DNA of 55,110 nucleotides from Caldifarciminota bacterium (GTDB lineage Bacteria > Hydrothermota > UBA3072), in the NCBI GenBank assembly GCA_016930175.1, contig JAFGHJ010000014.1:1-55110 (forward strand), in the 5' to 3' direction. Shown here piece after piece: positions 18,102 through 55,110 of the stretch. The notes below the pieces were generated by a model. It was not told the origin of the DNA and ran no database searches. It saw nothing but the letters and a program-made list of their open reading frames with translations. The number at the start of each line of letters is the position of its first letter. Position 1 is the stretch's first letter. Made by a program: the position numbers and the translations under genes.

Positions 18102-18709
18102 GATCTGACCTCCTCAATAAATCTTTTGACCTTTTCTTTATCCTTCTTGCCATAGTCTTTTTCAACGCCAGTAGAAACGTCTACTCCGTAAGGGTGTAAG
18201 TCTCTTATGACATGTTTTACGTTATCGGGAGTAAGTCCGCCGGCAATTATGAGAGGTTTATCGATTCCACGCGCTATATCCCAGTTGAATGTTTTTCCGC
18301 TTCCTCTTCCCGGATCGAGAATAAATGCAGAGACCGAGTAGTTTTGCATTTTTTCTATTAATGTTTCTTTTGTGTCGTTTTCGTTTACATGGATCCCTTT
18401 TATTACTTTTCTGTTAACCTTATCGCAATACTCGCAAGTTTCTTTGCCGTGAAGCTGGACTGTATCAATAAAAGCATATTCGGTAATTTCATTTACTTCA
18501 CTCAAGGCTGTGTTCATGAATATACCCACGGTAGTTATAAAAGGAGGCAGAATCCTAATTATTTCTCTAGCCTTATCGGGTGTAATTTTTCTTTTAGATT
18601 CTGCGAAGACAAAACCGATGGCGTCGGCTCCGAGATTCGAAACCATTATTGCGTCCTCTTTGTTTGTTACTCCGCAGATTTTTAATCTTGTTCTGAAGTG
18701 TCTATCCAT
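18095..18709 (-). CDS. trpF: Phosphoribosylanthranilate isomerase
   Basis: The 204-residue barrel enzyme isomerises N-(5-phosphoribosyl)anthranilate to CdRP in the Trp branch. The general base Cys12 lies in K-I-C-G-V-T; the general acid Asp is in I-L-D-P-G-R-G-S-G; the phosphate loops A-G-G-L-T and V-S-T-G-V-E are present. A true trpF and a separate hisA are both here, so no PriA-like dual enzyme is needed. It begins within the end of tyrA (28-base overlap). Confidence 0.95.
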   Translation of the reverse strand: MDRHFRTRLKICGVTNKEDAIMVSNLGADAIGFVFAESKRKITPDKAREIIRILPPFITTVGIFMNTALSEVNEITEYAFIDTVQLHGKETCEYCDKVNRKVIKGIHVNENDTKETLIEKMQNYSVSAFILDPGRGSGKTFNWDIARGIDKPLIIAGGLTPDNVKHVIRDLHPYGVDVSTGVEKDYGKKDKEKVKRFIEEVRSC

Positions 18710-19776
18710 CTTTTCCCATCTTTCATTATTTTGGTGAAGTCTTTTTTATTTCCTTTTAAAACTGATTCAATTACGTATTTCAAGGCCTGTTCCAATCTGT
18801 CGTATAAATCATTCTTAAAAGGATTGAATTTTTGTATCGCATAATAAAGGTCTGAATTCTCAGTTATCACTTCTTTTGTTGTCCCCATCTGGGAAACGAA
18901 AGTTGTACTCGCTACTTTTTTTAGCTCGGCGTAATCGTATTCACCGTCCATTAGTGCTTTCATAAATATTATATTTATTATATGAGATAAAGCTAAAACA
19001 TAGGAAATTATCCGGTCATGTTTTTTTAAAGGAATTTCTACTATTGTTGCGCTTGTGTCTTTAAAGAATGTTTTAACCTTTTCGGTCGCTTTTGTATTGC
19101 CGCAGTCACAAAGACATATTATTCTATCAGAAAGCGTGCTGACTTTTGGTCCAAACATGGGATGTATGCTTGTATAAGAAATACCGCACCTTAATGCTTT
19201 TTCAATAGCACTTTTTGAATTATCTTTCAGACTTGCAATGTCGAAAACCGTTCCTTTGAATTCTAGCTGTATAATTTTTTCGATAATTTCAGGCATAATT
19301 TCGAAAGGAACTGCGAGAAGAATACAGGAAGCTTCCTTAACTGCGTTAGCAAGGCTATCAAAGCTTTTAAAATGCTTTGATTTACCCTTAGTATCGTGAA
19401 TAAAAACATTATGTCCCTGGTTTGCGAAGAAATTAGCAAACCAAAGACCCATTTCTCCGAGACCTCCTATGATAAGAATATCTTCTTTATCGCCGCTGTA
19501 AGAGGAGTAGTGTAGAATTTCCTGCTGTATCTTTGATTCTGTTATTATATTCTGCATAATTGTTTTTATCAATTCTTGAGAAAGATTTTCTTCTGAAGCC
19601 ACTTCAAGTGCATTCTTTATCACTTCTTTTTCGACTTTCCAATCCTTCAAAGGTATTCCTTTCTTTTTCTTATTTCCGCCTATTTTTTTTGTTATGGAAA
19701 GTCTTTTGGCGATTAGTTTGATTATTTCTTTATCGACTTCTCTGACTTCTTTTCTGAGTTTTTCTATCTCGTTCAT
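18682..19776 (-). CDS. tyrA: Chorismate mutase / prephenate dehydrogenase fusion
   Basis: The 364-residue protein has an AroQ-type chorismate mutase at residues 1-88 (L-R-K-E-V-R-E-V-D-K-E-I-I near the start, K-x-I-G at 31-34). A prephenate dehydrogenase follows, about 92-364, with NAD motif G-G-L-G-E-M-G and H-P-M-F-G-P. This is the order of the enteric T-protein. It converts chorismate to prephenate and then to 4-hydroxyphenylpyruvate. It carries the only chorismate mutase in the window, so it must also feed PheA. A dedicated aromatic aminotransferase is absent; HisC may fill in. Confidence 0.94.
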   Translation of the reverse strand: MNEIEKLRKEVREVDKEIIKLIAKRLSITKKIGGNKKKKGIPLKDWKVEKEVIKNALEVASEENLSQELIKTIMQNIITESKIQQEILHYSSYSGDKEDILIIGGLGEMGLWFANFFANQGHNVFIHDTKGKSKHFKSFDSLANAVKEASCILLAVPFEIMPEIIEKIIQLEFKGTVFDIASLKDNSKSAIEKALRCGISYTSIHPMFGPKVSTLSDRIICLCDCGNTKATEKVKTFFKDTSATIVEIPLKKHDRIISYVLALSHIINIIFMKALMDGEYDYAELKKVASTTFVSQMGTTKEVITENSDLYYAIQKFNPFKNDLYDRLEQALKYVIESVLKGNKKDFTKIMKDGKRWIDTSEQD

Positions 19777-47803: not shown

Positions 47804-49204
47804 TTATTTTTTTCGTGTCAAGAGGCTTACTACAATAACTGCAATTGTAGCGAGTGCGAAGGCGGCTACCCTTACGGAAATGAAATTGTCGAGAGTTTCT
47901 ATATTTGCCCAAATCATTGTACTTATAGCGCCCGTTAGCATTCCCGCCATAACTCCATATTTTGTAGTTTTCTTCCATTTTAACGAGAAGAGAAGCGCGG
48001 GTCCGAACGAAGCGCCGAGTCCGCACCATGCGTAGGAAACCATTGTATATATAAGTTTTTGTGATTTGATTGCAAGAATAAAGGCAGATATCCCTACAAG
48101 TAAGGTGATTATTCTCGAAGCCATTAGTTGTGTTTTCTCGGAAATCTTTCTTCTGAATAAGTTGTGATATACGTCTTCGGATAAAGCGGAGGACGCGACA
48201 AGGAGTTGTGAATCGGCTGTAGACATCATTGCGGCTATTGCTCCTGAAATCAGGATTCCTGCAAGCCAGAGGGGAAGAAGGGTGGTTGCGAGGTGGGGCA
48301 TAAGATATTCGGAATCGGAAAGTGTTCCCGGAGTTACAAGTCCTTTTCCGACTACGCCTATAAAGAACGCTCCAAAAAATGCGGGTATGCTCCATACAAT
48401 TGCGATATTTCTGCTGATTCTTATTTTTTCAGGGTCTTTTATCGACATATATCTTACGATTGTGTGCGGTTGACCGAAGTATCCGAGTCCCCAGCTTAAG
48501 CCTCCTATTACTCCTGCAATGGCGGGCCATCCTTTAAGATTTCCTACGAGTGAGGAGAGGGTGAAATTTATATTGTGTCCACCCTTTAATATTGTTATGA
48601 AACCTACTATAGGGAGTGCAACGAGCGTAATAATCATGAGTATTGCCTGCAGGAAATCCGTCCAAGCTACGGCAAAAAAACCTCCCATCAGAGTATAAAA
48701 TAAAATAACCAGAGCGCCTATCATTATTCCGTTAAAGTGAGGAATTCCAAAAGTAGTGTGAAGGGTTTTCCCGGCTCCGTTAAATTGCGCAGATACGTAT
48801 AACGAATAAAAAAATATGATGATAAATGTTGCTATAATTTCATTTATTTTGTTTTCCTGCCCAAAATTCTTTGACAAAAATCCCGGTAATGTAATAGCGT
48901 TCAGCTTTTCTGTTTTGATTCGGAGGTCTTTCGCGATTATAAACCATGCAGCGATAATTCCGGCTACGCAACCGATGGCGGTCCAGAGCTCAATAAGTCC
49001 CGCAGTTAGTACCATCGCGGGTAAACCTAAAAGCAGCCATGATGATTCTCCTGATGCTCTCTCTGAGAACGCGGCAACTACTGGATTTAATCTTCTTCCA
49101 GCTATAATAAAATCTTCCTGTGTTTTTGTAAGACGGTAAGTCCATATACCAATGCCTAAGATAACGATTAGATAAACGAAGAAACCTATTAGAATCGGAT
49201 CCAT
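47804..49204 (-). CDS. putP: Sodium/solute symporter, proline-type (SSS family)
   Basis: The 466-residue protein has about 13 membrane segments. It carries the SSS motifs: D-F-I-I-A-G-R-R-L-N near residue 40, S-G-E-S-S-W-L-L-L-G-L-P-A in segment 2 (part of the Na+ and substrate sites), W-G-L-G-Y-F-G-Q-P-H in the middle and A-A-M-M-S-T-A-D-S-Q-L-L in segment 8 (Na+ site). These fit the PutP proline branch best; other solutes such as pantothenate or sugars are less likely. AAGGAGG precedes its ATG. It is divergent from the purine permease, with its own promoter. Confidence 0.88.
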   Translation of the reverse strand: MDPILIGFFVYLIVILGIGIWTYRLTKTQEDFIIAGRRLNPVVAAFSERASGESSWLLLGLPAMVLTAGLIELWTAIGCVAGIIAAWFIIAKDLRIKTEKLNAITLPGFLSKNFGQENKINEIIATFIIIFFYSLYVSAQFNGAGKTLHTTFGIPHFNGIMIGALVILFYTLMGGFFAVAWTDFLQAILMIITLVALPIVGFITILKGGHNINFTLSSLVGNLKGWPAIAGVIGGLSWGLGYFGQPHTIVRYMSIKDPEKIRISRNIAIVWSIPAFFGAFFIGVVGKGLVTPGTLSDSEYLMPHLATTLLPLWLAGILISGAIAAMMSTADSQLLVASSALSEDVYHNLFRRKISEKTQLMASRIITLLVGISAFILAIKSQKLIYTMVSYAWCGLGASFGPALLFSLKWKKTTKYGVMAGMLTGAISTMIWANIETLDNFISVRVAAFALATIAVIVVSLLTRKK

Positions 49205-50804: not shown

Positions 50805-51277
50805 GAATATCTCACACAGAGAGCGCTGAGTTCTTTTAGCCGTCAGCCGTCGGCGATCAGCTGTCAGCTTTTTTAACTTACACAAAGACACGAAGAACGC
50901 CGAGAAAATAGTATATGGGTATATGAGTTGAGGAGTAAATGGGTAAAAAACAGTTATCCCATCCACCCATACACTCATTATCTCATTCACTCAGACACAT
51001 GTAGAGCGTGTAGTTCTTGTAGTTTTTGTTTTGACACAAGACACTCGACTCATGATTCAGTTAACCGTATAACCGCCTTTAAATCGCATCATTAGGATTC
51101 ATTTTATTTGGTAATTATATGAATATGAGCAAATATAGCTAAACAAATATTTTTATTCAAGGGGGAAAATAGAAAAAATTATCTAAAAATACTATAAATT
51201 TATATAGTAAAAATAAAAAAGGCTGTCCACCTTTATGAAGACAGCCTTTTTATGAATATACCTTTTAAATATTCAAA
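50805..51277. other. Non-coding gap with degenerate repeats
   Basis: This 473-bp stretch has no supported gene. It holds two arms of the gap-repeat family (50808-50832 and 50880-50906), a block of GCCGTCAGC-like words at 50838-50870, short CACCCATACACTCAT-like words at 50958-50995 and AT-rich DNA. The bidirectional terminator at 51216-51251 closes it. Confidence 0.5.
51216..51251 (-). terminator. Rho-independent terminator of the GH5 operon
   Basis: A 12-bp perfect stem, AAAAAGGCTGTC with GACAGCCTTTTT, around a 12-base loop. It has T-rich tails in both directions, so it ends the GH5 gene (stop at 51278) and could also stop transcription from the left. Confidence 0.9.
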
Positions 51278-53047
51278 TTAATTTTGAATCTTATCTAATG
51301 CCCATTCTCCTGTTACAGTAAAATCTATCACAGGATCCCATGGTACAATTGTCTTGTTTTCCACATCTGGATGTCCGGACAAACCTGTCCTTAAGACCAG
51401 CATTCTCTTTCCTCTTGTGCTTTTATTTGTAAACTCACCATATACCCAGCTTAAGTTATTATCTGCCATCCATGAATGCCAGAGTTCTGCTTCTTCAAGG
51501 TCGTATAGACCAATATCTTTTGGATCTTCAGGATCATTGGCCTTACTATTTCCAGCAGCATCATGCGCTGTCCACTCGGACACAAATATTGGAAGATCAT
51601 TTCCAAGCGCTATGTCTGCCGTATCCCTTAATTCCTGGTCATCATCATAAGCTGCAAAATGCAGCCCATACATGACGTTTGTCTGGCCAGTTATTGGATC
51701 GCGTGAGGCAATATGCGGTTCCTTGCTTTGTGATGGGGTTCCAACAATAATTATATTATCAGGATCATTAGCTCTTATTACAGGGATAACCTCTTCCGCG
51801 TATGACTTAACATTTTCCCATGAAACTTTGGGTTCATCGCAGATCTCATAGATCACATTAGGTAAATCTCCGTATTTCTCACTCATTTCATCAAAGAATT
51901 CTATTGCTTCCTCTGTGTATAAATCGGGATCCCCCTCCTTCACAATATTCCAGTCTATAATTACATATATACCAGCTTCGATTGCATCATCTATATAGGA
52001 GACTAAATGACTATGCATTAGTGCTGTCAGATCTGGTGCCAGATATCCATGATCATTTGGAGTGACAAATAGTGTTATACGGAATAACTCGATTCCAAGA
52101 TTATAAGCTAACCTCTGAATCGTATGACCTTTTCCATAATAGTTCCAACGTATTGTTTCTGTTGTAACTCCTTTAAGCTGTATAGGGTCACCATCAGAAT
52201 TACACAAATTTGTACCAATAACCTGTAAATTCCCGTATTTATCAACCGGTTTAACATAACCTCCCGGAGCTTGTATTGTTCTTGCAGGGGGCCCGTTTTC
52301 TTCTTTAGTCAGGTAGATATAATCTAAATTGGCACCTCCAGAAGGATCTGTATATTCTAATTTTACAGTGTTCACACCCTGCCTTAGATTATAAGAGCCG
52401 ACATATTCACTTATCCATGTTTGCCAGTTTCCAGGTGGATGGGGAACTCCAAATGGATCGGTATTTTCTACGTTAACTGTATCTCCTACTAACTCTGAAT
52501 TTATAATCACCCGGCAGGGGAGCGGAAATTCATTATCATGAGCAACACGAATCCAGACATTACACTCATCAGATGGTTCTGTAAGAATCAGGTCCCATTC
52601 TAACCATTCACCTCCGGATACCCAGCATGTATTAAAACCTCCTTCCCAACAATCTTCCACATCTAACCCACTATCATATATACGCTCTCCATTATTAACT
52701 GCATCGTTATCACTTACTCTGTCATAAAACTCGGCTTCAAGATGTATCCCTCCTGTCTCCGGCATTGTAATTGTCGGTAAGGGTAATGAATCTATAAGAC
52801 CCGCAAAGAATTGAGCAATCATTATAGCATCTACAGCTTGTATCTCATCATCTAAATTCACATCTCCTGCCTCAACCGGTGCTGTAAATTCTGGCGTCGG
52901 AAGTGATAAATGGTGTCGAGCAACTAAAAGCGCGTCCAGAATAGTGATCTCTCCATCTTCATCCACATCTCCCGCTGAAGTCTGGGCGAACAAGCCAATA
53001 CTCAGCAACAGAATAAAAACTAAAATAAATTTTGGCAAGCACTTCAT
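51278..53047 (-). CDS. Secreted dockerin-CBM6-GH5 glycoside hydrolase
   Basis: The 589-residue exported enzyme has a signal peptide at residues 1-21. Next comes a type I-like dockerin (26-90) with two perfect calcium loops of the D-x-(D/N)-x-D form: D27, D29, D31, D38 and D62, N64, D66, D73. A CBM6-like module follows (about 100-248; E-A-E-F-Y start, G-E-W-L-E-W-D, A-N-L-D-Y-I-Y-L). Then a GH5 barrel (about 265-545) has acid/base Glu405 in Y-E-I-C-D-E-P and nucleophile Glu491 in F-V-S-E-W. The usual GH5 motif is N-E-P; here Asp404 replaces that Asn. Likely substrate: cellulose or another beta-glucan or mannan. It has no C-terminal sorting tail, unlike the two genes upstream, so it probably attaches through dockerin to their cohesins. 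AAGGAGG precedes the ATG; terminator at 51216-51251. Confidence 0.9.
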   Translation of the reverse strand: MKCLPKFILVFILLLSIGLFAQTSAGDVDEDGEITILDALLVARHHLSLPTPEFTAPVEAGDVNLDDEIQAVDAIMIAQFFAGLIDSLPLPTITMPETGGIHLEAEFYDRVSDNDAVNNGERIYDSGLDVEDCWEGGFNTCWVSGGEWLEWDLILTEPSDECNVWIRVAHDNEFPLPCRVIINSELVGDTVNVENTDPFGVPHPPGNWQTWISEYVGSYNLRQGVNTVKLEYTDPSGGANLDYIYLTKEENGPPARTIQAPGGYVKPVDKYGNLQVIGTNLCNSDGDPIQLKGVTTETIRWNYYGKGHTIQRLAYNLGIELFRITLFVTPNDHGYLAPDLTALMHSHLVSYIDDAIEAGIYVIIDWNIVKEGDPDLYTEEAIEFFDEMSEKYGDLPNVIYEICDEPKVSWENVKSYAEEVIPVIRANDPDNIIIVGTPSQSKEPHIASRDPITGQTNVMYGLHFAAYDDDQELRDTADIALGNDLPIFVSEWTAHDAAGNSKANDPEDPKDIGLYDLEEAELWHSWMADNNLSWVYGEFTNKSTRGKRMLVLRTGLSGHPDVENKTIVPWDPVIDFTVTGEWALDKIQN

Positions 53048-53078
53048 TATTAAACCTCCTTTTTTTAAATATTAGTAA

Positions 53079-53840
53079 TTACCTTATGATAATCGCTTTC
53101 TCTTTGTAAACTTTGTTTCCTATTTCCACTCTGGCAAAGTAAATACCGGGAGAGCCGTTCCAGGTGAGGTTGTATTTTCCCGAAGGGCTGACGCCGTCCG
53201 CAAGCCCTGCGAGTTTCTGACCGAGAATGTTGTATATTTCCACCTTCACCTTTTCTCTTTTTTCGAGAGTGTATTGAATGTTAATTCCCGGGTTGAGACT
53301 GCCGACGGAAACTCCCGTTTTTAAAACCTCGTTTTCTTCAATCGCGCCAAGGACGACCTCTATATATCCATCATTGGCTGTGGGTGTTCCTGCTGGTACT
53401 AGCATTTCATCAGTCATATGACTTACTGTCATTCCCAGTTTTGTGAATTCCGTCTTCTCTTTTACTGCCCATGTAATTGTTAATAAATGAAGGTCCTCTG
53501 AGGGATCTTTACCCACGGCGTCGAATCCGGTTGTTATTAGTGATTCTGGTTGGGGATTGTACGCTGTGAGGAATCCATCATCGCCCTCTACACAGGAAAG
53601 ATACTCAACAACACTGCTGTCAAAAGAGATGTTTATGCCGTAAGCGGCAAGGTTCTGTGTGCCTGTGTTCACGTGCACTTCAGTTGTGAATTCTTCACCA
53701 GTGTTACACTCTTGAAGATACGGACTAATCCACACGGCGCCGGCGAATGATGTATCCGGCGGATCAGGCTCTTCCTGGGCATTCAACCCAATACTCAACA
53801 GCAAACTAAAAACTAAAACAAATCTTGATAAATACTTCAT
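53079..53840 (-). CDS. Single-cohesin protein with type IX-like sorting domain
   Basis: The 253-residue protein has a signal peptide (1-21) nearly identical in style to that of the GH5 gene. One cohesin-like module follows (about 33-165, with A-A-Y-G-I-N-I-S-F-D-S-S-V-V, G-F-D-A-V-G-K and L-H-L-L-T-I-T-W). The C-terminal domain (180-253) has V-E-I-Y-N-I-L-G-Q-K, G-K-Y-N-L-T-W-N-G and G-I-Y-F-A-R-V and ends in I-I-I-R. That tail resembles type IX secretion sorting domains (or FlgD-like Ig domains), which deliver proteins to the outer surface in Bacteroidetes-like bacteria. Its likely role: a surface adaptor that holds one dockerin enzyme. It lies 31 bases upstream of the GH5 gene, behind AAGGAGG. 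Confidence 0.8.
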   Translation of the reverse strand: MKYLSRFVLVFSLLLSIGLNAQEEPDPPDTSFAGAVWISPYLQECNTGEEFTTEVHVNTGTQNLAAYGINISFDSSVVEYLSCVEGDDGFLTAYNPQPESLITTGFDAVGKDPSEDLHLLTITWAVKEKTEFTKLGMTVSHMTDEMLVPAGTPTANDGYIEVVLGAIEENEVLKTGVSVGSLNPGINIQYTLEKREKVKVEIYNILGQKLAGLADGVSPSGKYNLTWNGSPGIYFARVEIGNKVYKEKAIIIR

Positions 53841-53901
53841 AAGCTTCCTCCTTTTCTTATTTTTGCATATGAATATTTTACAATATCAAGTACCTCAATA
53901 A

Positions 53902-55110
53902 TTATCTTATAATAAGCGCTTTTTTTCTGTAAACCTTATTTCCTATTTCTACTCTGACGAAGTAAATGCCCGGTTGTCCGTTCCACGTGAGGTTATATTT
54001 GCCCGAGGGGCTCGTTCCATCTTTTAGTTTGGCTAATCTCTGACCGAGAATATTGTGTATCTCCACTTTCACCCTTTCTTTTTCTTCGATATTATACTTA
54101 ATATTAATACCTGAGTGAAAATAGGGAACAGAAATGACTTTTACTGAAGTCCCGTTTTCTTCAATTCCGCCAGAAGTTACATTTATTATACCGTCATGGG
54201 CTGTGGGTGTTCCTATCGGTACTGACAATTCATCTGTCAAATCATTTACTGTCATATCTAATTGTGACGCCCCAGTATCTACGGCTATCCATTTGATTGT
54301 TAATAAATGAAGACTATTTCCGGGACCTTTACCCGCAGCATCAAATCCGTCTATTATCAGGTTTCCTGGTAAAGGATTTATTGCGGCGATGAATCCATCA
54401 GTGCCAGCTATAGTAGTATCGTACTTAATAACACTGGTATCATAAGCGACCTCTATACCATAAGCACTTACTAACTGTTCGCCCGAGTTCATTCGCACTT
54501 CAGTTGAAACAGTATCGTTCACGGTACAATTTTGACTATCTGGTTGAAACCATACAGAACCTATTGTTGAGTCCGATAAAGTATCCTCTACAATTATTAT
54601 ACCGTCATTCGATGTGGGTGTTCCTATTGGGAATAACATATCATCTGACAAATCATTTATTGTCATCTCTAATTGTGACGTACCTTCACCTACAGCTATC
54701 CATTTGACTGTTAATAAATGAAGACTATCTCCGGGACCTTTACCTACAGCATCAAATCCACTTGTTATAAGTTTTCCCGCTGTAGGATTTACCGCTGAAA
54801 CAAAACCCTCAGTACCAGCTTCAATGGAAACATAATCAATAACGTTAGTATCATAAGCGATGTCTATACCATAACAAGCTACTAACTGTTCGCCTGAGTT
54901 CACGAGTATTTCAGTTGTTACCGTGTCATTCTTGTAGCAATCTTGACTATCTGGTTTAAACCATACAGAGCCTACTGTTATTGTGGATTCCGAAGAAGTA
55001 TCCTCTACAATTATTATACCGTCATTCGATGTGGGTGTTCCTATTGTCAATCCCATCTTATTTTCTAAAGAGTCAATCGTTAATTCTAGTGGGGATGTTC
55101 CTTTTTTAAC
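53902..55110 (-). CDS. Multi-cohesin scaffold protein, 5' end outside the window
   Basis: The frame is open to the right edge; an in-frame ATG at 55056 is internal to a module and not the start. The visible 402 residues hold the tail of one cohesin-like module, two complete ones (about 139 residues each) and a C-terminal type IX-like sorting domain (Y-N-I-E-E-K onward, ending L-I-I-R). Each module shows C-Y/A-Y-G-I-x-x-A-Y-D, G-F-D-A-(V/A)-G-K-G-P-G and L-H-L-L-T-x-K-W, and modules are joined by Thr/Ser/Asp-rich linkers. The modules repeat at DNA level with a period of 417 bp. With a dockerin enzyme two genes away this looks like a scaffoldin. Cohesin assignment is by eye and needs a profile check. 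Confidence 0.8.
   Translation of the reverse strand, partial: VKKGTSPLELTIDSLENKMGLTIGTPTSNDGIIIVEDTSSESTITVGSVWFKPDSQDCYKNDTVTTEILVNSGEQLVACYGIDIAYDTNVIDYVSIEAGTEGFVSAVNPTAGKLITSGFDAVGKGPGDSLHLLTVKWIAVGEGTSQLEMTINDLSDDMLFPIGTPTSNDGIIIVEDTLSDSTIGSVWFQPDSQNCTVNDTVSTEVRMNSGEQLVSAYGIEVAYDTSVIKYDTTIAGTDGFIAAINPLPGNLIIDGFDAAGKGPGNSLHLLTIKWIAVDTGASQLDMTVNDLTDELSVPIGTPTAHDGIINVTSGGIEENGTSVKVISVPYFHSGINIKYNIEEKERVKVEIHNILGQRLAKLKDGTSPSGKYNLTWNGQPGIYFVRVEIGNKVYRKKALIIR

Follow-up and report, generated by a model that had tools for sequence, protein, structure and literature searches.

A candidate cohesin-dockerin surface display with type IX sorting tails and spirochaete-type modules in a Caldifarciminota bacterium

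Gene set and cohesin identity

The right end of contig JAFGHJ010000014.1 (C18) of a Caldifarciminota bacterium (GTDB lineage Bacteria; Hydrothermota; UBA3072) carries three open frames on the minus strand. They encode a multi-cohesin protein and a one-cohesin protein, both ending in a sorting tail of the type IX secretion system (T9SS), and a GH5-family protein that has an N-terminal dockerin and lacks such a tail. We propose that this gene set would form a minimal surface-anchored dockerin-cohesin display in an outer-membraned bacterium, built from modules of the lineage behind spirochaete cellulosomes, and we consider this proposal, taken as a whole, reasonably probable. The architecture of the gene set itself is real and well supported. 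The window, i.e., the whole stretch of DNA that was analyzed, is the entire contig of 55,110 bases, from a draft genome of 2.34 Mb in 48 contigs that is 94.33% complete. The three frames (51278-53047, 53079-53840, and 53902-55110) are adjacent and on one strand, just as an earlier note made from the sequence alone had described them. Their features are as follows.

53902-55110, minus: open frame of the multi-cohesin protein with C-terminal T9SS tail, 5' end missing (off the contig); Cohesin 36.4 bits, TIGR04183 40.3 bits
54583-54975, minus: complete cohesin module of the multi-cohesin protein; Pfam Cohesin and a hidden Markov model (HMM) built from the genome's own cohesins
54172-54561, minus: complete cohesin module of the multi-cohesin protein; HMM built from own cohesins
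53917-54114, minus: T9SS type A sorting tail of the multi-cohesin protein; TIGR04183, residues 333-398
53079-53840, minus: open frame of the one-cohesin protein with signal peptide (by eye) and T9SS tail; Cohesin and TIGR04183
53355-53741, minus: cohesin module of the one-cohesin protein; structure model and fold matches
53088-53294, minus: T9SS type A sorting tail of the one-cohesin protein; TIGR04183, 39.5 bits
51278-53047, minus: open frame of the dockerin-CBM6-GH5 protein with signal peptide (by eye), without T9SS tail; Pfam and TIGR04183 scan
52811-52975, minus: dockerin with two calcium-loop repeats, DVDEDGEITILD and DVNLDDEIQAVD; PF00404, 37.5 bits
52304-52675, minus: CBM6/CBM35-like module, under both curated cut-offs; Pfam, and PDB CBM6 chains at 2.6e-6
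51425-52204, minus: GH5 domain, catalytic E405 and E491 retained; Pfam Cellulase, PDB and homolog alignments
51216-51251, minus: hairpin followed by a T run, likely intrinsic terminator ending the gene set; RNA fold

Both scaffold proteins score above the Pfam Cohesin cut-off of 24.1 bits (27.7 for the one-cohesin and 36.4 for the multi-cohesin protein). The latter holds the end of one cohesin and two complete cohesins ahead of its tail, and the HMM of own cohesins recognizes its modules at 3.3e-30 and 1.5e-29. Searched with a profile built from the five own modules, the PDB yielded no cohesin structure at E<=1. The module at 53355-53741, modeled with 25 related modules, reached a predicted local distance difference test score (pLDDT) of 93.7, and its top Foldseek matches were cohesins, with E values down to 1.7e-9. 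A second structure aligner gave Z 16.6 and a root mean square deviation of 1.6 over 124 residues against a Clostridium acetobutylicum cohesin. Type I cohesins rank above type II among the fold matches, and the own cohesin is, in this confident model, type I-like. The earlier claim of cohesins is thus borne out by Pfam and by fold, and the doubt over an Ig-like look-alike is cleared: another Ig-like fold is ruled out by the cohesins that head the list (Z up to 16.6). An earlier model, of the whole one-cohesin protein, had a pLDDT of 63.8 and a Foldseek list made up mainly of unspecific Ig-like domains, with the C-terminal domain of gingipain RgpB (5ag8) at rank 3.

T9SS tails and the proposed surface display

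The tails of the one-cohesin and multi-cohesin proteins reach 39.5 and 40.3 bits with TIGR04183 (Por_Secre_tail; cut-off 23), whereas the same scan of the GH5 protein found no tail, in line with the earlier statement that both scaffolds carry the same sorting-type domain and the enzyme does not. The Pfam tail model PF18962 scores 25.1 and 26.4 bits on the two cohesin proteins, just under its cut-off of 27. By its gene content, the genome has a T9SS: it encodes a PorU equivalog (462.5 bits; cut-off 420), SprA (249.9 bits; cut-off 200), PorV family members (7 of 15 matches over the cut-off), and three C25 peptidases besides PorU, and 68 of its 79 TIGR04183 matches exceed the cut-off, one of these only with its neighbors in frame. 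PorU, PorV, and SprA, the machinery that the earlier note named for such tails, are thus all found over their cut-offs. When compared with 28 tails of the own genome, a comparison in which row L013 was wrongly translated, both window tails have their best match there (L010, 33 to 35% identity), with phylum tails scoring close behind; a host origin of the tails is weakly suggested.

Downstream of the GH5 gene, RNA folding of positions 51195-51275 yields -22.1 kcal/mol (z -4.37), an energy that none of 200 shuffles reached, and the hairpin at 51216-51251 was not among the matches of a terminator pattern scan. This strong terminator-like hairpin lies 3' of the GH5 gene and therefore argues that no T9SS tail is hidden beyond the end of that gene.

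From the tails and the machinery follows a possible pathway for the scaffolds: the cohesin proteins would cross into the periplasm by Sec, their C-terminal tails would direct T9SS export, and PorU would fix them on the outer surface. The GH5-family protein, with its signal peptide, N-terminal dockerin, and no tail, would be held at the surface by dockerin-cohesin binding, a docking that we infer because matching module types occur in one gene set. It may cross the outer membrane by riding with the scaffold through the T9SS, or by another route; passage of a folded client through the T9SS pore is conceivable.

A probable second part of the array

The earlier note had suggested extending the contig to the right in search of further cohesins. 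The window is the full contig, and a second contig, C5, ends in an array of the same kind. The plus-strand end of C5 holds a one-cohesin-plus-tail gene (18151-18942) and a further scaffold gene that starts at 19004 and, before the contig ends, encodes one cohesin in full and the opening residues of another. The ends of C5 and C18 share exact repeats of up to 68 bases, and they do not overlap end to end by 5 or more exactly matching bases. We infer that a multi-cohesin gene would span the C5-C18 gap, with at least four modules if the contigs are joined. Most simply, the two ends would belong to a single array that broke at a repeat, in the order remnant, one-cohesin, multi-cohesin, one-cohesin, dockerin-GH5. 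In total, the genome holds five complete and two partial cohesins, the partials possibly belonging to one module, hence at least six. Since exact repeats of up to 68 bases occur between the array ends, the array may have grown by tandem duplication. The remnant, a scaffold gene at C5:17784-18146 (L043), is left with its signal-peptide start and last tail residues, and its DNA is 81 to 88% identical to the intact genes.

The dockerin-GH5 protein

The 51278-53047 protein scores 37.5 bits with Dockerin_1 (cut-off 22.9), with both calcium loops intact as read from the sequence, and 131 bits with Cellulase (cut-off 23.5). CBM_6 gives 22 bits and does not reach its cut-off of 28.9. Of the enzyme modules claimed earlier, dockerin and GH5 thus exceed their cut-offs, and CBM6 does not. 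As for the scaffolds, no CBM was found in the two scaffold parts scanned, the multi-cohesin protein being incomplete.

A search with PF00404 at E<=10 over the whole 94.33% complete genome, from which about 6% is missing, found no dockerin beyond that of the GH5 protein. The model is sensitive to this dockerin type, because in two spirochaete genomes, with 150 candidates scored in each, it finds 127 and at least 150 matches. Cellulosomes are marked by several different dockerin-bearing enzymes, and this genome has one PF00404 match. The earlier label "cellulosome-like" hence suits the cohesins and the dockerin and fails for the enzyme mixture.

We compared the GH5 domain with the GH5 chains of the PDB (three alignments) and with 11 spirochaete homologs, at positions that we take to be the canonical GH5 active-site set, with their presumed roles. 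The domain keeps the catalytic glutamates E405 and E491 as well as R323 and H463, and has replaced four of the eight canonical residues (N367 for H, D404 for N, A465 for Y, and G537 for W). The spirochaete homologs retain H, N, and Y in 11 of 11 cases and W in 10, with one gap. Judging from these residues, the GH5 domain may have lost its activity, may be altered, or may serve as a binder, and it may act on another substrate; cellulose cleavage is doubtful. The earlier description as GH5 holds at the level of the family; a working cellulase is not to be assumed, since four canonical active-site residues are replaced.

Relationship to spirochaete modules

When genome_contigs was scanned with the five own cohesins as queries, there were 64 pattern matches, and the 8 loci that could be confirmed all lie in two metagenome-assembled genomes of Spirochaetales. 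In a tree of 75 cohesin modules, from which modules with E above 1e-4, too-short modules, and four antisense artifact frames were excluded, the 5 own and 20 spirochaete modules group together, separate from the 50 modules that represent the host's phylum (support 100/99). Outside the genome, each of the five own cohesins is best matched by a spirochaete module, at about 40 to 50% identity. The dockerin follows the same pattern (50% identity to its best match, which is spirochaetal, and 34% to the best host-phylum match), as does the GH5 domain, which at 1e-10 finds matches in both spirochaetes searched (7 and 14 matches, up to 49% identity) and in 0 of 36 host-phylum relatives (class members and genomes with cohesin or dockerin matches, chosen from 146). 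Within the phylum, a cohesin match at E<=0.001 was found in 21 of 147 genomes (own included) and a dockerin match in 21 of 147; among the nine other genomes of the own class, none has a cohesin and one has a dockerin.

Since three module kinds, cohesin, dockerin, and GH5, point to one foreign lineage, horizontal transfer is the likely source of the modules, and it would have run toward the host because the spirochaete sets are far larger. Indeed, four of the 26 genomes in the order Spirochaetales (G147, G148, G163, and G165) have 25, 63, 31, and 43 cohesin matches. Their scaffoldins carry 7 or 8 cohesins, CBM3, and a dockerin (L049:3249-8942 and L054:3228-8411), and their one-cohesin proteins have lipoprotein-type starts, with a cysteine ending the signal peptide, by eye (L050, L052, L053, L199, L201, and L204). 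Several of their proteins have the dockerin directly behind the signal peptide (L050, GH43; L056, Cel124-like; L186 and L189, GH5). To judge from these genes, large cellulosomes seem to be encoded in these Spirochaetales genomes, with the one-cohesin lipoproteins as likely anchors; we found no description of such cellulosomes in the accessible portions of the openly licensed PMC literature, PMC9040765 included. Two of the spirochaete GH5 proteins (L186:165-2204 and L189:1483-3555) have a rhodanese-like domain between dockerin and GH5, which is unusual in a secreted protein.

In our proposal, cohesin, dockerin, and GH5 modules would have come, together or stepwise, from the lineage behind these cellulosomes. 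T9SS tails would have replaced the lipoprotein anchors of the spirochaetes on the cohesins, and tandem duplication would then have enlarged the array.

The numbers also invite another use of the scaffolds, in which the T9SS-anchored cohesins mainly hold dockerin enzymes of neighboring spirochaetes and the own dockerin protein is a minor or noncatalytic client. This we regard as unlikely. At least six cohesins, of spirochaete type, face a single own dockerin gene with an altered GH5 active site, and related spirochaetes have the 127 and at least 150 dockerin matches given above; however, the cohabitation of the two organisms is an assumption, and the modest identity between own and spirochaete cohesins makes cross-binding uncertain. 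A bolder version, in which the host borrows a foreign cellulosome through a re-anchored spirochaete docking set, piggyback T9SS export of the tail-less dockerin protein, and spare cohesins that capture dockerin enzymes of other species, would be somewhat less likely again.

The same gene set could also be a decaying import, acquired, duplicated, and now losing function. The scaffold gene remnant on C5, the changed GH5 site, the CBM6 score under its cut-off, and the absence of cohesins from the nine other class genomes are in agreement with this. However, all three window frames are long and open, the dockerin loops and the cohesins are well preserved, and both catalytic glutamates are retained; we give decay the same low likelihood as the capture of spirochaete enzymes.

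Returning to the minimal display that we favor, several observations weigh against it. One dockerin gene stands against at least six cohesins, four GH5 active-site residues are changed, and the decayed scaffold at C5:17784-18146 means that the array may be decaying. The weak step is how the GH5 protein, lacking a tail, would cross the outer membrane. The tree program warns of long branches among the cohesins. The halves of the array lie at contig ends of a draft genome, which leaves some room for an error of assembly or binning, although both contigs hold other genes and the neighboring permease shares 81% identity with its counterpart in the single same-genus genome searched. That permease was found in three of six relatives searched. 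Of these, the same-genus genome alone also matches the adjoining window frame (47804-49204), and other genes follow the permease there; C5 genes adjoin the permease in none of the three. These three neighborhoods offer no clean empty site, so that an insertion point is not definable from them.

Relation to known systems

A T9SS-anchored cohesin scaffold, which had been thought new, has a precedent and recurs in the host's phylum. In the accessible part of PMC8542988, Candidatus (Ca.) Stygibacter (Cloacimonadota) is described with dockerin enzymes and a tandem-cohesin scaffoldin whose conserved C-terminal domain serves direct attachment to its own surface, for which a T9SS review is cited. Among the accessible parts of openly licensed PMC papers, this was the sole case found of a cohesin scaffold tied to a T9SS-type tail. 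Ca. Stygibacter has a 3,755-residue scaffoldin with CBM2/CBM3 and several C-terminal-dockerin enzymes (GH18, GH57, S8, and C25), whereas in the window the scaffolds are short, the single dockerin is N-terminal on a GH5 protein, and the modules are of spirochaete type. In the host's phylum, with HMMs built from matches found in this analysis, cohesin and T9SS tail occur in one frame in 14 of the 21 cohesin-matching genomes (own included). The window set is a minimal variant of this already known kind, probably put together by horizontal transfer.

With clostridial cellulosomes of the CipA/CipC type, the set shares a type I-like cohesin fold, a two-calcium-loop dockerin, and a multi-cohesin scaffold; it differs in having no S-layer or sortase anchor, one dockerin gene, and no CBM3 on the scaffold parts at hand. 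The Spirochaetales genomes Zod_Metabat.749 and Zod_Metabat.855 have the closest cohesins, dockerins, and GH5 domains, and several of their proteins place the dockerin behind the signal peptide. There, however, one-cohesin proteins are lipoprotein-like (lipobox by eye) and the scaffoldins have 7 to 8 cohesins with CBM3 and dockerin, in contrast to the T9SS tails of the window. Ca. Paraporphyromonas polyenzymogenes, according to the accessible part of PMC5831590, also brings cellulase-family enzymes to its surface through the T9SS, from a genome without cohesins or dockerins; there the tail is on the enzyme itself, whereas in the window it is on the cohesin proteins.

Many cohesin-tail proteins of the phylum also hold a dockerin in the same chain, and cohesins exist outside cellulosomes, the noncellulosomal cohesin 2xdh being among the top fold matches of our model. 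The window genes might then encode ordinary T9SS surface proteins, with cohesin-like domains for adhesion or self-association that do not bind the dockerin of the neighboring gene. We hold this to be the least likely of the alternatives: here scaffold and client are separate neighboring genes, and the cohesins and the dockerin both trace to the same foreign lineage.

If the display that we propose is true, the cohesin-dockerin plug would be portable across bacterial phyla with different envelopes, the anchor being the swapped part, a lipid in spirochaetes and a T9SS tail here. It would also be a small system for asking whether cargo without a T9SS signal leaves via a partner equipped with such a signal, and it would offer a natural template for displaying proteins on the surface of T9SS bacteria.

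Relatives in the phylum show further arrangements. Three of them (G022, G056, and G021; L104-L106, L131-L134, L139, and L140) have 25, 18, and 9 dockerin matches; in G022 a contig end truncates a protein with three cohesins, and G056 has no cohesin match at E<=0.001. In G028, G031, and G030 (L107, L108, and L127), the gene of a dockerin protein, in L107 a subtilase S8, adjoins that of a 246-residue cohesin protein without T9SS tail; these pairs would be a peptidase version of the dockerin-cohesin pair. Finally, single proteins in G143, G131, G132, and G146 (L110, L113, L115, and L117) have the order cohesin, dockerin, cohesin, T9SS tail, a layout in which self-docking or chain formation is possible.

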